This document shows, piece after piece, positions 18,479 to 22,198 of a DNA stretch of 64,000 nt. Each line of letters begins with the position of its first letter. Positions within the stretch are counted from its first letter, which is position 1. The translations under genes and the position numbers were made by a program. The stretch lies in NCBI RefSeq assembly GCF_020042285.1, contig NZ_CP083388.1, forward strand, positions 3,188,001-3,252,000, in the 5' to 3' direction. The stretch is from Ferruginibacter albus (lineage in GTDB: Bacteria; Bacteroidota; Bacteroidia; Chitinophagales; Chitinophagaceae). The notes under the pieces are model-generated. The model was given only the letters and a program-made list of their open reading frames with translations. It was not told where the DNA came from and made no database searches.

Positions 18479-19180
18479 TTATCCCAAATGCCCGTAATTA
18501 AATATAAAAACCTTTCGTAAAGACCCCTTATAATACAGCTCTAGGATCACCCGATGAAGCTCTACATAAGATTGCTGTAAAACTTCCTCAGCATGATGCT
18601 TGAATGAACGATATTCTCTATACATGGCATTTTTTGCAATATCTGGTACATAATCTAAGCTAAGGTTTTCACCTATCGCCCGTTCATAAGCTTTATAAAA
18701 GCTCAATGTATCAAAGGCAGGAAATTTACTTCGCTCTGCTTCGGGAACAGAATCTATTAAGAATCCACCAAGCTTATTATCGTAACGAAGCGTATCATAC
18801 GGAGAATTATACAATATCCAGTCTGTTAATAACGGATCGGGGCCCATACTTGAAACACAATACCTGTTTTGATGCTTCATTAATATATAGAAAGTTGAGT
18901 CGCATTCAGGATAATCAATTTTTAATAGCCGCTTCTGAATATCTCCTGAAGCCGGTCCATGAAGATCGATGATCACAGTATCATCTGCTATTGACATATC
19001 GCTGCAATTGCAACTATCAATATCAAACGAAAAACTCTCATTAGACATTTCACATTTAGGAAACCATGCAGTATCATTTTTAGCAGTATTAGCAGTAGTT
19101 ACCCCCAAGACTTTATCCTTTGCTTTGCGTGAGCAGGCTGTTAAACCCGCAAGAATAAATAGTACAATGAATGTTCTCAT
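18479..19180 (-). CDS. Lipoprotein of unknown function
   Basis: This 233-residue protein has a lipoprotein signal (MRTFIVLFILAGLTACSRKA; lipobox LTAC, lipidated Cys16). The mature part has paired cysteines (CNCSDMS near residue 57) and ends in a helical segment of about 60 residues. No family was recognised. It is the last of three codirectional genes for exported proteins (18479, 19202, 20012) of similar size; it stops 3 bp after the shared terminator. Confidence 0.75.
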   Translation of the reverse strand: MRTFIVLFILAGLTACSRKAKDKVLGVTTANTAKNDTAWFPKCEMSNESFSFDIDSCNCSDMSIADDTVIIDLHGPASGDIQKRLLKIDYPECDSTFYILMKHQNRYCVSSMGPDPLLTDWILYNSPYDTLRYDNKLGGFLIDSVPEAERSKFPAFDTLSFYKAYERAIGENLSLDYVPDIAKNAMYREYRSFKHHAEEVLQQSYVELHRVILELYYKGSLRKVFIFNYGHLG

Positions 19181-19201
19181 GTTGTCAGTCAGTAAAAAAA
19201 A

Positions 19202-19945
19202 TTATTCAAAGTATTCGATACGTCGATAAATGGTATAGGAGATCAATTCAGGATCTTTGTATTCTTTATTTTTAATGAACTGTCGCGCCAGCCAATTGCC
19301 ATTTTTATCATATTGAAGATAATTAACAGAATACATTAAAACAGAATCATTATTCGGTCGTCGTAAATAGATCAAACTGTCATAACCGTTTTGATTTTTA
19401 ATGACAGCATACTGTTGTTCATCATAAATTTGACTTGGATTAATTCCTTCAAGAAAGGCATTCATTAAATAGTTTTTTCCGTTTTTAACAGAAACATATT
19501 TTTTATACTTTTCCAAAGTAAAGTGATTCTCGTCGTCGATTATTTTATTGTACACTACCTCGCTTAACGTATCCCCTGCTTTATAATAGGTTCTTGCATA
19601 TTTTTCTTTGGATGATGTTTGGGTTATGGTCAATGAATCTTCATCTCTTTTAAAATTAATTTCAGAACCATCCATTGCATATGGTGATGGATTAATATTT
19701 TCGATCTTTATTAACTCTCCTGCTTCGTTAAAAGTATGCTCGTGATAATTAGTGTTTTGCTTTGCGAAGGTTTCGAAAGTAGCCGTTGCACTTAAGCCTA
19801 TGCCAACGTTTATCTCAGCAAAGGTTTTTACTTTACCGTGAAGACCAAAAAAGCTTAGATCACTACTGGAATATTTTTTCTTCTTTTGGCTGCAGCTTAT
19901 TACACCGATCATAAGTGGCAATAGAAGGATATATCTTGTTTTCAT
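19202..19945 (-). CDS. Lipoprotein with YD-repeat-like segments
   Basis: This 247-residue protein has a lipoprotein signal (MKTRYILLLPLMIGVISCSQ, Cys18). The mature part follows a pattern common in Bacteroidota surface lipoproteins: an opening GLHGKVKTFAE, then FNEAGELIKIE, then YDKNGNWLARQFI, ending in a YRRIEYFE strand. These resemble isolated YD/RHS-like hairpins. Function is unknown. It lies 21 bp upstream of the next lipoprotein gene. Confidence 0.75.
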   Translation of the reverse strand: MKTRYILLLPLMIGVISCSQKKKKYSSSDLSFFGLHGKVKTFAEINVGIGLSATATFETFAKQNTNYHEHTFNEAGELIKIENINPSPYAMDGSEINFKRDEDSLTITQTSSKEKYARTYYKAGDTLSEVVYNKIIDDENHFTLEKYKKYVSVKNGKNYLMNAFLEGINPSQIYDEQQYAVIKNQNGYDSLIYLRRPNNDSVLMYSVNYLQYDKNGNWLARQFIKNKEYKDPELISYTIYRRIEYFE

Positions 19946-20011
19946 GTTTGTTGATGCTTAGTTGATATGATAAACTTTTATGAAGATAATGCTCCATAAA
20001 AGTATTACGAT

Positions 20012-20824
20012 CTATTTTACAACGACTGTTTCCCAGCCATCATAATCTCCGTTACACTTTTCTGCTTGCTTGCGAAGCTTTAATGTTAATTGGCTGATAG
20101 AATCAATATCTATTTTATCTATTCTTGACACCTGTAAAGAATATGGCATAGAACCGGACTTCCCTTTGTCTTTAGCTTCTATTTTGAAATTATTTTGTTT
20201 GGCATATTCTTCAAAGCAATTTCTGTCTGCCACTGTTTTAAAATAGATCCAATGGTCTACTTTTCTTTCTTTAATTAGTTCATCTCCCTGCTCCTGCAGT
20301 TTCATAATAACTTTTTGGTTTAGCATGTATTCATAAGTTTCTTCGTTTGGATAAAGAAATTGCAGGTATGCTTCCCAACTGCTGTCTGTTTTAATAGTAA
20401 TATAAGGCTGATAGGTTTTAAACTGCCGGCTGTACATTTTTTGCAGCTTATCCCGTATTGTAAGTGTATCGTTCACATAATAATACTCAAGACGTTGGCA
20501 TTGATAGGTAAACGTGCCGACGATTTCATTCTTCACCGTCCTGTTCATTATAGCTTGTACAGAATCAGAGATGTTATACAACGCACTAAATTGTTCACCG
20601 GTAGGAAAGCCTTCACTGGTACAATCACTAAAGGTGACTCCTGTTATCACCACATAAGGCAAGCTATGGACCGGAGCTTTTTCTTTAGCGCTGATATTGA
20701 TCGTGGTAGAGCCTGCGCCTTTTTCATATTGCGCCAGGTAAACATCCCACTTGTCTACTTGTGCATGCACTATGGTGAAACAAATTAAAAGAACAGCAAA
20801 AAGAAAAATGATTTTGTATTTCAT
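20012..20824 (-). CDS. Exported DUF695 plus RraB-like protein
   Basis: This 270-residue protein has a signal peptide (MKYKIIFLFAVLLICFTIVH, cleavage after HAQ). An N-terminal DUF695-like half (WDVYLAQYEKG through TYQPYITIKTDSSW) is followed by a C-terminal half that looks like the RraB fold (DHWIYFKTVADRNCFEEYAK ... GDYDGWETVV). RraB is a cytoplasmic inhibitor of RNase E in Escherichia coli, so a signal peptide on this domain argues for a different, envelope role here. The domain calls come from pattern recognition. Confidence 0.7.
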   Translation of the reverse strand: MKYKIIFLFAVLLICFTIVHAQVDKWDVYLAQYEKGAGSTTINISAKEKAPVHSLPYVVITGVTFSDCTSEGFPTGEQFSALYNISDSVQAIMNRTVKNEIVGTFTYQCQRLEYYYVNDTLTIRDKLQKMYSRQFKTYQPYITIKTDSSWEAYLQFLYPNEETYEYMLNQKVIMKLQEQGDELIKERKVDHWIYFKTVADRNCFEEYAKQNNFKIEAKDKGKSGSMPYSLQVSRIDKIDIDSISQLTLKLRKQAEKCNGDYDGWETVVVK

Positions 20825-20916: not shown

Positions 20917-21126
20917 AAAAGTCGTAGAGTTTGATGTTAGAATCGTGGAGTTTATCGATAGAAACTACGATTTTATCTATTACGGTGGGAATTTGATAGC
21001 AAGAATTGACGGTTTTGATGATAGAATCGACGACTTTGACCATGAAATCGGTGTTTTTGACGATGAAGTCGACGACTTTAATGATAGAAACGGCATTTTG
21101 ATCGTTAGAATCTACGTTTATTGTAT
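20917..21126. repeat. Degenerate 21-bp tandem array, ten units
   Basis: Ten consecutive units start at 20917, 20938, 20959, 20980, 21001, 21022, 21043, 21064, 21085 and 21106. A common core is TAGAATCGACGA-TTTTGA. The 21-bp period is seven codons. The array is free of stops in one frame on each strand, giving heptad-like peptides (RIDDFDH/EIGVFDD/EVDDFND on plus, VKVVDSI/IKTVNSC on minus). No signal or start context marks either frame as a gene. Confidence 0.75.
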
Positions 21127-21135
21127 ACAAACTGC

Positions 21136-21399
21136 AATTATTGTTAGTTATTATGGCAACTTGTTTTTGTAAGCGCAGGAATCTGTCCTGTGTTTATGTG
21201 TTATTGAACTAACAATTTTTGCTAAGTAACGTAGCGGCACAGGACGGAGTCCTGCGCCTAAAGGAGTAATTATTGTTAGTTATTATGGCAACTTGCTTTT
21301 GTAAGCGCAGGATTCTGTCCTGTGTTTATGTGTTATTGAACTAACGATTTTGCTAAGTAACGAAGTGGCAGAGGACGGAGTTCTGCGCTTAAAAGGGTG
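21136..21399. repeat. Duplicated 132-bp unit with REP-like inverted arms
   Basis: Two direct copies start at 21136 and 21268 (period 132 bp) with few differences. Each unit contains a left arm around GCGCAGGA-TCTGTCCTGTG and a right arm around CACAGGACGGAGTCCTGCGC, which are imperfect inverted repeats of about 23 bp separated by about 45 bp. Each arm is itself a small GGAC/GTCC palindrome, as in REP sequences. No transposase or RAYT gene is next to it. Confidence 0.75.
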
Positions 21400-21400
21400 G

Positions 21401-22198
21401 TTATTTCCGTATATTAATTAAACATTCTCTATTAATTGGTTCTTTTACTAAGCTAACTTCAACAATCGATGCCTCATGTATTTCATTAATGCATTTGATA
21501 TTATTATAAATATCTCCAGCAAAATGATTACATTCAACATAGTTCGATTTGCAAATTGAGCAAACTGATTTTGTTGCTATTCCGGTTAAACTGGCACCTT
21601 TTATCTTACCTTCTCTAATTTTCCTTTTAACCGAATTGTCTAAAATGATTGCATCATCAAATTCTAATGTTGAATAAGTAGCCTTTAATCTACACCATCC
21701 AATAACTTTCGGCTTGTGATTAATAAATATAGGAGTAGGTAAGTTTATATAAGGACTTTTGAGAGAGAAACATTTATCAAAATCTTCTTTGACTTTTTCG
21801 CTCTTTTTCTTTTTGTCTTTTATTTCGCTTTTACTAATTATCTGTTGGTTTAAATTTATTATTATTGAATTATCTACTATGATAATATTATTTTTAATGT
21901 CTTCTGTTTGATTCCATTTGTCTATTACTTTTTGAATATAGTTGCTCAAAATATTAACAATAATACCCGTTGGAATACCTATTAAAAATGTATAAACTGG
22001 ATTATCAAAGAATTCATGGAAGCCTTTTTTATAGAGGTATTCAATTGGCTGATCGTTTTCAGGAGTTACAATTATCTCATAACCATTTAATCTTAATTCT
22101 TTGATAAGTTCTAACGTACCCTTAGTAACCAGCTTTCTATTTGGAAATCTTGTTTCATAAGGATTGAAAGATTCAATTTTAATTTTTTGTGTCATCAC
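21401..22198 (-). CDS. Orphan protein with a membrane-like segment and Cys/His cluster
   Basis: This 265-residue protein was not assigned with certainty. Residues 1-60 are a small alpha/beta region. A hydrophobic segment (VYTFLIGIPTGIIVNILSN, about residues 67-85) could be a membrane helix. A lysine-rich linker is followed by a C-terminal domain with CSICKSNYVECNH and then EVSLVKEPINRECLI. The order of a C-x2-C-x5-C-x-H knuckle and a terminal EVSLV-x-x-P strand recalls phage prohead proteases, without other phage genes nearby. Low GC and flanking repeats suggest accessory DNA. Confidence 0.6.
   Translation of the reverse strand: MMTQKIKIESFNPYETRFPNRKLVTKGTLELIKELRLNGYEIIVTPENDQPIEYLYKKGFHEFFDNPVYTFLIGIPTGIIVNILSNYIQKVIDKWNQTEDIKNNIIIVDNSIIINLNQQIISKSEIKDKKKKSEKVKEDFDKCFSLKSPYINLPTPIFINHKPKVIGWCRLKATYSTLEFDDAIILDNSVKRKIREGKIKGASLTGIATKSVCSICKSNYVECNHFAGDIYNNIKCINEIHEASIVEVSLVKEPINRECLINIRK

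Follow-up and report, generated by a model that had tools for sequence, protein, structure and literature searches.

A cellular relative of phage prohead proteases, fused to an A-type module, in Ferruginibacter albus

What might a protein that resembles a phage prohead protease be doing in a region of housekeeping genes of Ferruginibacter albus? The initial annotation of the 64,000-nucleotide stretch of DNA that we analyzed (hereafter the window) singled out one open reading frame (ORF), P0001, for its motif CSICKSNYVECNH, a terminal EVSLVKEP, and a hydrophobic segment, all of which we found in the sequence where it had placed them. We therefore examined where this gene lies, what its two halves are related to, and which roles could account for them.

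P0001 is an accessory gene downstream of ftsZ

21401..22195, minus strand: gene P0001, 264 residues, from the ATG at 22195 to the stop at 21401-21403 (ORF listed as 21401-22198)

The P0001 ORF is plain and intact on the minus strand. The listed GTG sits one codon upstream of the likely start, ATG 22195, which corresponds to the start in full-length P0001 relatives (by alignment, at least three relatives). The gene occupies the stretch downstream of ftsZ and, as first described, lies between repeats and the end of the dcw cluster, with 132-nt repeats (21136-21405) on one side and ftsZ/ftsA on the other. When the ORFs were read by eye, the rest of the 64 kb proved to consist of heme synthesis genes, the dcw cluster, and other housekeeping genes. 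The same reading showed no capsid, portal, or terminase gene in the 64-kb window, in agreement with the initial annotation, and no portal-protease-capsid cluster around P0001; no defense gene adjoins P0001 in the window either.

In other genomes of the genus, where this stretch is readable, it contains other genes without P0001, and a kup-like transporter gene often adjoins ftsZ. P0001 is absent from all the other searched genomes of the genus and from 394 other sampled genomes of the phylum, and a four-sequence profile also found no P0001 in these samples. The matches obtained by tblastn (60 and 395 genomes) were weak, short, or frame-broken and were taken as chance rather than as relatives. 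Because of this absence from the genus and phylum samples, the variable site, and a low G+C content (27% vs. 37% for the window), P0001 displays the pattern of an accessory, transferred gene, and we conclude that it is an accessory gene.

The DNA beside P0001 has peculiarities of its own. The repeats at 21136-21405 are a tandem duplication of a 132-nt unit, with parts 96% and 84% identical, which ends at the P0001 stop and holds an internal inverted repeat around CGCAGGA..TCCTGCG. A search of the genome found these repeats at 21136-21405 only; they look like a local tandem duplication and give no hint of a transposable unit. Imperfect repeats with a 21-nt period, of the GACGGTTTTGATGATAGAATCG type, fill the intergenic stretch 20924-21092, and a 104-residue ORF with 7-residue repeats that overlaps them is probably no gene. 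Further along (18479-20824), three consecutive minus-strand genes encode small lipoprotein- or signal peptide-bearing proteins of unknown function, and in the relatives that were read these genes do not occur in the stretch behind ftsZ.

We then sought relatives by scanning viral and genome contigs for a DNA pattern encoding C-[ST]-[IV]-C-x3-Y-x2-C-x-H-x2-G-x2-Y, which was derived from the weak matches of P0001 described below; the counts from genome contigs are lower bounds. The matches listed fall into three groups: 1) many phage head proteases, 2) the C-terminal part of a protein that we call B, and 3) full-length P0001 relatives. There are at least three of the latter, in Chryseobacterium caseinilyticum (53% identity), Hymenobacter nivis (40%), and an Acidobacteriota metagenome-assembled genome (MAG; 28%), and those listed are single genes with no adjacent phage genes. 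The description of P0001 as an orphan fails outside the genus, where it has at least three true relatives, although none of the further genomes sampled from its genus and phylum carries it. Since the C-terminal motif block is invariant among the full-length relatives listed, which come from other genera and the Acidobacteriota MAG, and since a profile of B proteins built without P0001 picks P0001 out of its own genome (E 4.8e-13), we regard the gene as real rather than as a chance reading frame.

P0001 on its own gave only weak matches. One, with E 3e-6, is a Moorella phage gene flanked by those for portal and major capsid, and two Bacillus-type phage-plasmids have matching genes in a similar position. 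The others are proteins labeled "CxxC" or hypothetical, from a Rhizobium plasmid, a plasmid of a haloarchaeon, and a pleolipovirus. Its closest phage genes are those sited between portal and major capsid genes. A single-sequence search of PDB and viral_contigs with P0001 returned nothing. The family relationship of P0001 is well supported.

The prohead protease-like domain and its knuckle

21404..21748, minus strand: prohead protease/assemblin-like domain, residues 150-264 (Foldseek BFVD, VIA-align, PF04586 match of an orthologue)
21716..21718, minus strand: His160, putative catalytic histidine (TPIFINH), invariant in 25 sequences
21590..21592, minus strand: Ser202, putative nucleophile (KGASLTG), invariant in 25 sequences
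21491..21562, minus strand: knuckle C212-x2-C215-x6-C222-x-H224-x10-C235, between the Ser and Glu strands (alignment)
21458..21460, minus strand: Glu246 (EVSLV), putative third catalytic residue, invariant in 25 sequences
21437..21460, minus strand: terminal strand EVSLVKEP, residues 246-253 (alignment of 25 sequences, and model)

The AlphaFold2 model of P0001 (pLDDT 79, pTM 0.72), in which the protease part is mostly near 90, is of the prohead protease/assemblin type. Among viral structures it matched largely prohead proteases (Foldseek against BFVD, with E down to 1e-6 and a probability of 1.00). The PDB entries that it resembles most in VIA-align are the pseudorabies and KSHV assemblins and T4 gp21, with Z scores of up to 4.7 for the herpes assemblins and 3.8 for gp21, values under 5 that are consistent rather than conclusive. 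A Pfam search with P0001 itself matched no family. Its Hymenobacter orthologue (L176) matched most of the PF04586 domain (E 0.0016, profile 53-153), with a score of 19.0 bits that is just below the curated cut-off of 21, and TIGR01543 with an E of 0.02. As modeled, residues ~150-264 are thus well supported as a whole assemblin/prohead protease-type domain, and the resemblance to prohead proteases first proposed for the C terminus is borne out over the entire protease core.

In an alignment of 25 sequences, H160, S202, E246, C212, C215, C222, and H224 are invariant, as are G196, G227, S248, V250, and P253, and H160 and S202 align invariantly with 21 phage proteases. We take His-Ser-Glu, with Glu as the third member, to be the catalytic set, as in HK97 gp4, and this putative site is apparently intact in P0001. 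The spacing between Ser and Glu is longer in P0001 because the knuckle lies between them.

The knuckle itself reads C-x2-C-x6-C-x-H-x2-G-x2-Y, followed by E-x-S-x-V-x3-P. Whether its cysteines persist among homologs was, next to the predicted fold, one of two points on which the initial annotation could have failed; it failed on neither, and the same alignment shows that the cysteines persist, which makes C212, C215, C222, and H224 four conserved candidate zinc ligands; C235 is replaced in some phage proteases. In a tree of the knuckle region, built from few columns and showing long branches, P0001 and its relatives group as a single clade (99/88). This clade falls, with B and the Moorella and Bacillus-type phage proteases, into a set with 99/99 support; the tree gives no direction of transfer. 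A 128-residue protein of Hadesarchaea (L119, 3521-3907, minus strand), with a Ser strand, knuckle, terminal strand, and little else, is a minimal free-standing version.

The N-terminal module and the A-B gene pair

21764..22195, minus strand: alpha/beta module of the N terminus (residues 1-144), kin to protein A (hhalign, shuffles, topology)
21914..22000, minus strand: hydrophobic stretch/helix, residues 66-94, possible membrane segment (model pLDDT about 40)

Among the matches listed, B genes occur in many phyla outside phages and carry the knuckle domain in their C-terminal part. Where the contig shows it, a gene of about 160 residues, A, overlaps or adjoins B, mostly just before it. Such A-B cassettes are found in both bacteria and archaea as well as in a pleolipovirus, and no Pfam, PADLOC, or NCBIfam model recognizes them. 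In B, a helical domain replaces the protease barrel, the matching His is missing, and Glu is sometimes missing, so B is probably not a protease; Ser, the knuckle, and the terminal strand are kept.

It is protein A to which the other half of P0001 is related. A profile of 15 A sequences matched the first 150 residues of P0001 family members with a probability of 86.8% (hhalign, P 4e-6) and a score of 41.9; no score above 27.7 came up in 400 shuffles of columns or blocks. Adding two A proteins to the profile raised the match to the N-terminal half to 94% (P 1.4e-7). In the model of protein A (pLDDT 86, pTM 0.82), residues 42-158 run strand-helix-strand-strand-long helix-strand-strand-helix, an order identical to that of residues 21-144 in the P0001 model. 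Thioredoxin-like and tautomerase-like PDB matches of both A and the N-terminal half of P0001 (Z 2-4) were not believed. The hydrophobic stretch (mean Kyte-Doolittle 1.59 over residues 66-84; 1.68-1.99 in orthologues) would make a borderline membrane helix, and model confidence is lowest there. Matches of P0001 to PHROGs holins were set aside, since they are confined to this stretch and what follows it.

Since its N-terminal half matches A and its knuckle is common to B, P0001 looks like an A/B-type fusion in which the protease core has been kept, and this fusion suggests that A and B work together. A search of the literature, in open-license texts whose silence proves little, found no description of the P0001/A-B family. 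Examples of the pair come from Halorubrum virus Humcor2 (QRG24098/QRG24097), a Rhizobium jaguaris plasmid, and Parabacteroides goldsteinii (L124). Both arrangements have an A-type module and a knuckle domain; the pair consists of two genes, usually overlapping, with a helical N-terminal domain and no protease His in B, whereas P0001 is one gene with a full protease core. In the pleolipovirus Humcor2 the pair (L009, 3973-5381) is cargo between the Rep gene and the structural genes. In two further pairs, from Pseudoalteromonas (L241, 7202-8483) and Acinetobacter (L242, 8403-9720), B has an added SEC-C-like cysteine motif near its C terminus, and one of these is annotated "zinc chelation protein SecC."

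How does P0001 compare with known systems? HK97-type prohead proteases, or Peptidase_S78 (PF04586, TIGR01543), share with it the assemblin-type fold and the His/Ser/Glu positions, and knuckle-bearing ones such as Moorella phage MTATph1 WPA89493.1 also have the knuckle between the Ser and Glu strands and E-x-S-x-V-x3-P. Unlike Peptidase_S78, P0001 is fused to an A-type module, stands alone on a bacterial chromosome with no head genes near, and is not recognized by Pfam. Although fold and residues are present, it falls outside PF04586 in the strict sense because its score and gene setting do not fit. Assemblin-like peptidases have been described in polyvalent proteins, large phage- or plasmid-borne multidomain proteins in which they are thought to process virion proteins (PMC5512222); there, as in P0001, the peptidase is a C-terminal domain outside the standard head-gene setting. 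A similar layout is found in EACC1 systems, predicted membrane sensors made up of a small alpha/beta-plus-TM protein and a caspase (Kaur et al. 2020, PMC7159879). EACC1 (PF19953) systems and P0001 both combine a small part with an alpha/beta fold and a hydrophobic helix to a peptidase, which is a caspase in EACC1 and assemblin-like in P0001. We liken them by layout alone and claim no kinship, and PF19953 has no match in P0001, the A proteins, or the P0001 genome. The most fitting description of P0001 is that of a cellular prohead protease relative that is also related, in fused form, to the A-B family.

Genomic setting and possible roles

Several A-B cassettes lie in mobile or defense islands. 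In Obscuribacterales (L165/L270), genes for a SMODS cyclase and a SLATT effector come immediately before one pair, and the surroundings also hold AbiEi/AbiEii, a relaxase, and another cyclase-like gene. The pair from Parabacteroides adjoins an integrase and a DUF5712 protein resembling a mobilization protein, and others lie beside a type IIG-like methylase, an AbiEii-like gene, or a Gabija/OLD-like ATPase. On viral contigs, one pair is beside a trypsin-like peptidase and another, on a different contig, is beside a terminase-like gene. Among the P0001 relatives, the Chryseobacterium one comes after an XRE-type regulator gene and before Mrr-type endonuclease, PIN, and helicase genes; downstream of the Hymenobacter relative come an unknown gene whose product has an RCAAAH motif and then a Fic gene; and a YoeB-like toxin gene is 2 kb from the Acidobacteriota relative. 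PADLOC, which has no model for P0001, detected 63 families in 74 neighbor proteins versus 8 in 87 proteins of a paired control (E 1e-10), an excess that we keep as a hint rather than as proof of defense since one locus supplies most of it. Overall, an association with defense is likely for the A-B cassette and plausible for P0001.

The Obscuribacterales row (L165, 4457-7250; L270, 9957-12750) consists of SMODS CD-NTase, SLATT_4 effector, A, and B on one strand and may be a CBASS operon to which A-B have been added. The RCAAAH gene encodes a 289-residue protein (L267, 10395-11261), possibly with a HEPN Rx4H motif, that has no Pfam or PADLOC match.

Our preferred, if tentative, reading is that P0001 is a membrane-associated serine protease of the capsid protease type, or a protease-shaped sensor, used in conflict with phages. 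The computation itself shows the ORF, the type of fold, the conserved residues, the family, the relation to A-B, and the setting outside phage genes; from these we infer membrane contact, zinc binding, protease activity, a trigger, a target, and a defense role. Its A-type module with the hydrophobic helix would probably dock it at the membrane, where it would rest until infection. Infection would then set it off, perhaps via capsid assembly proteins that a capsid protease fold could recognize, and the triggered enzyme would cleave a phage or host protein. According to Richmond-Buccola 2024 (cited in PMC11312562), a type I CBASS cyclase is activated by a phage prohead protease, and a host copy of the fold could therefore meet the same partners.

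That report also fits the main rival to a triggered protease, a pseudo-protease. P0001 would then be a non-cutting binding or decoy module for phage head assembly proteins or a host partner, and its N-terminal module would pass the signal on. What B keeps seems to be the binding face, since it retains the knuckle, Ser, and terminal strand while helices replace the barrel and His, and one A-B cassette directly follows a CBASS cyclase-effector pair. However, the joint invariance of His160, Ser202, and Glu246 in the P0001 family goes beyond what binding needs, and we consider this explanation rather doubtful. A membrane-associated stress or housekeeping protease, present in few bacteria and outside any phage conflict, would agree with relatives that, as listed, are all single genes and with a window of housekeeping neighbors that has no adjoining defense gene. 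It is unlikely in view of the absence of P0001 from every further genome sampled in the genus and phylum, its variable site downstream of ftsZ and deviant G+C (27% vs. 37%), and the presence of cassette kin on mobile elements. A decaying protease gene left by a lost prophage, which the phage head protease type of the C-terminal domain might suggest, is largely refuted and highly improbable, since at least three relatives, which belong to other families and in one case to a different phylum, have the N-terminal half as well, frame and key residues are all intact, and no phage gene was seen by eye in 64 kb.

To return to the triggered protease or sensor, a broader version of it, possible but less likely than not, would be that cells and mobile elements have turned the capsid protease domain of phages into the component that senses or cuts in an anti-phage system not yet described. 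This system would comprise the widespread A-B pair and the fused P0001 form that still has the protease site, and would turn the fold of the phage against it to detect or sabotage head assembly.

P0001 provides a concrete case of a virus assembly enzyme fold in cellular genomes, outside any virus, and links it to a widespread gene pair that none of the family libraries used recognizes. It would give the A-B cassettes, now annotated as hypothetical proteins, their first structural explanation. With phage head proteases and capsids being reported triggers of bacterial immunity, P0001, a host protein of that very fold, lends itself directly to tests of whether it senses capsid assembly, acts as a decoy in it, or sabotages it, and it may be a virus part that cells have reused against viruses.
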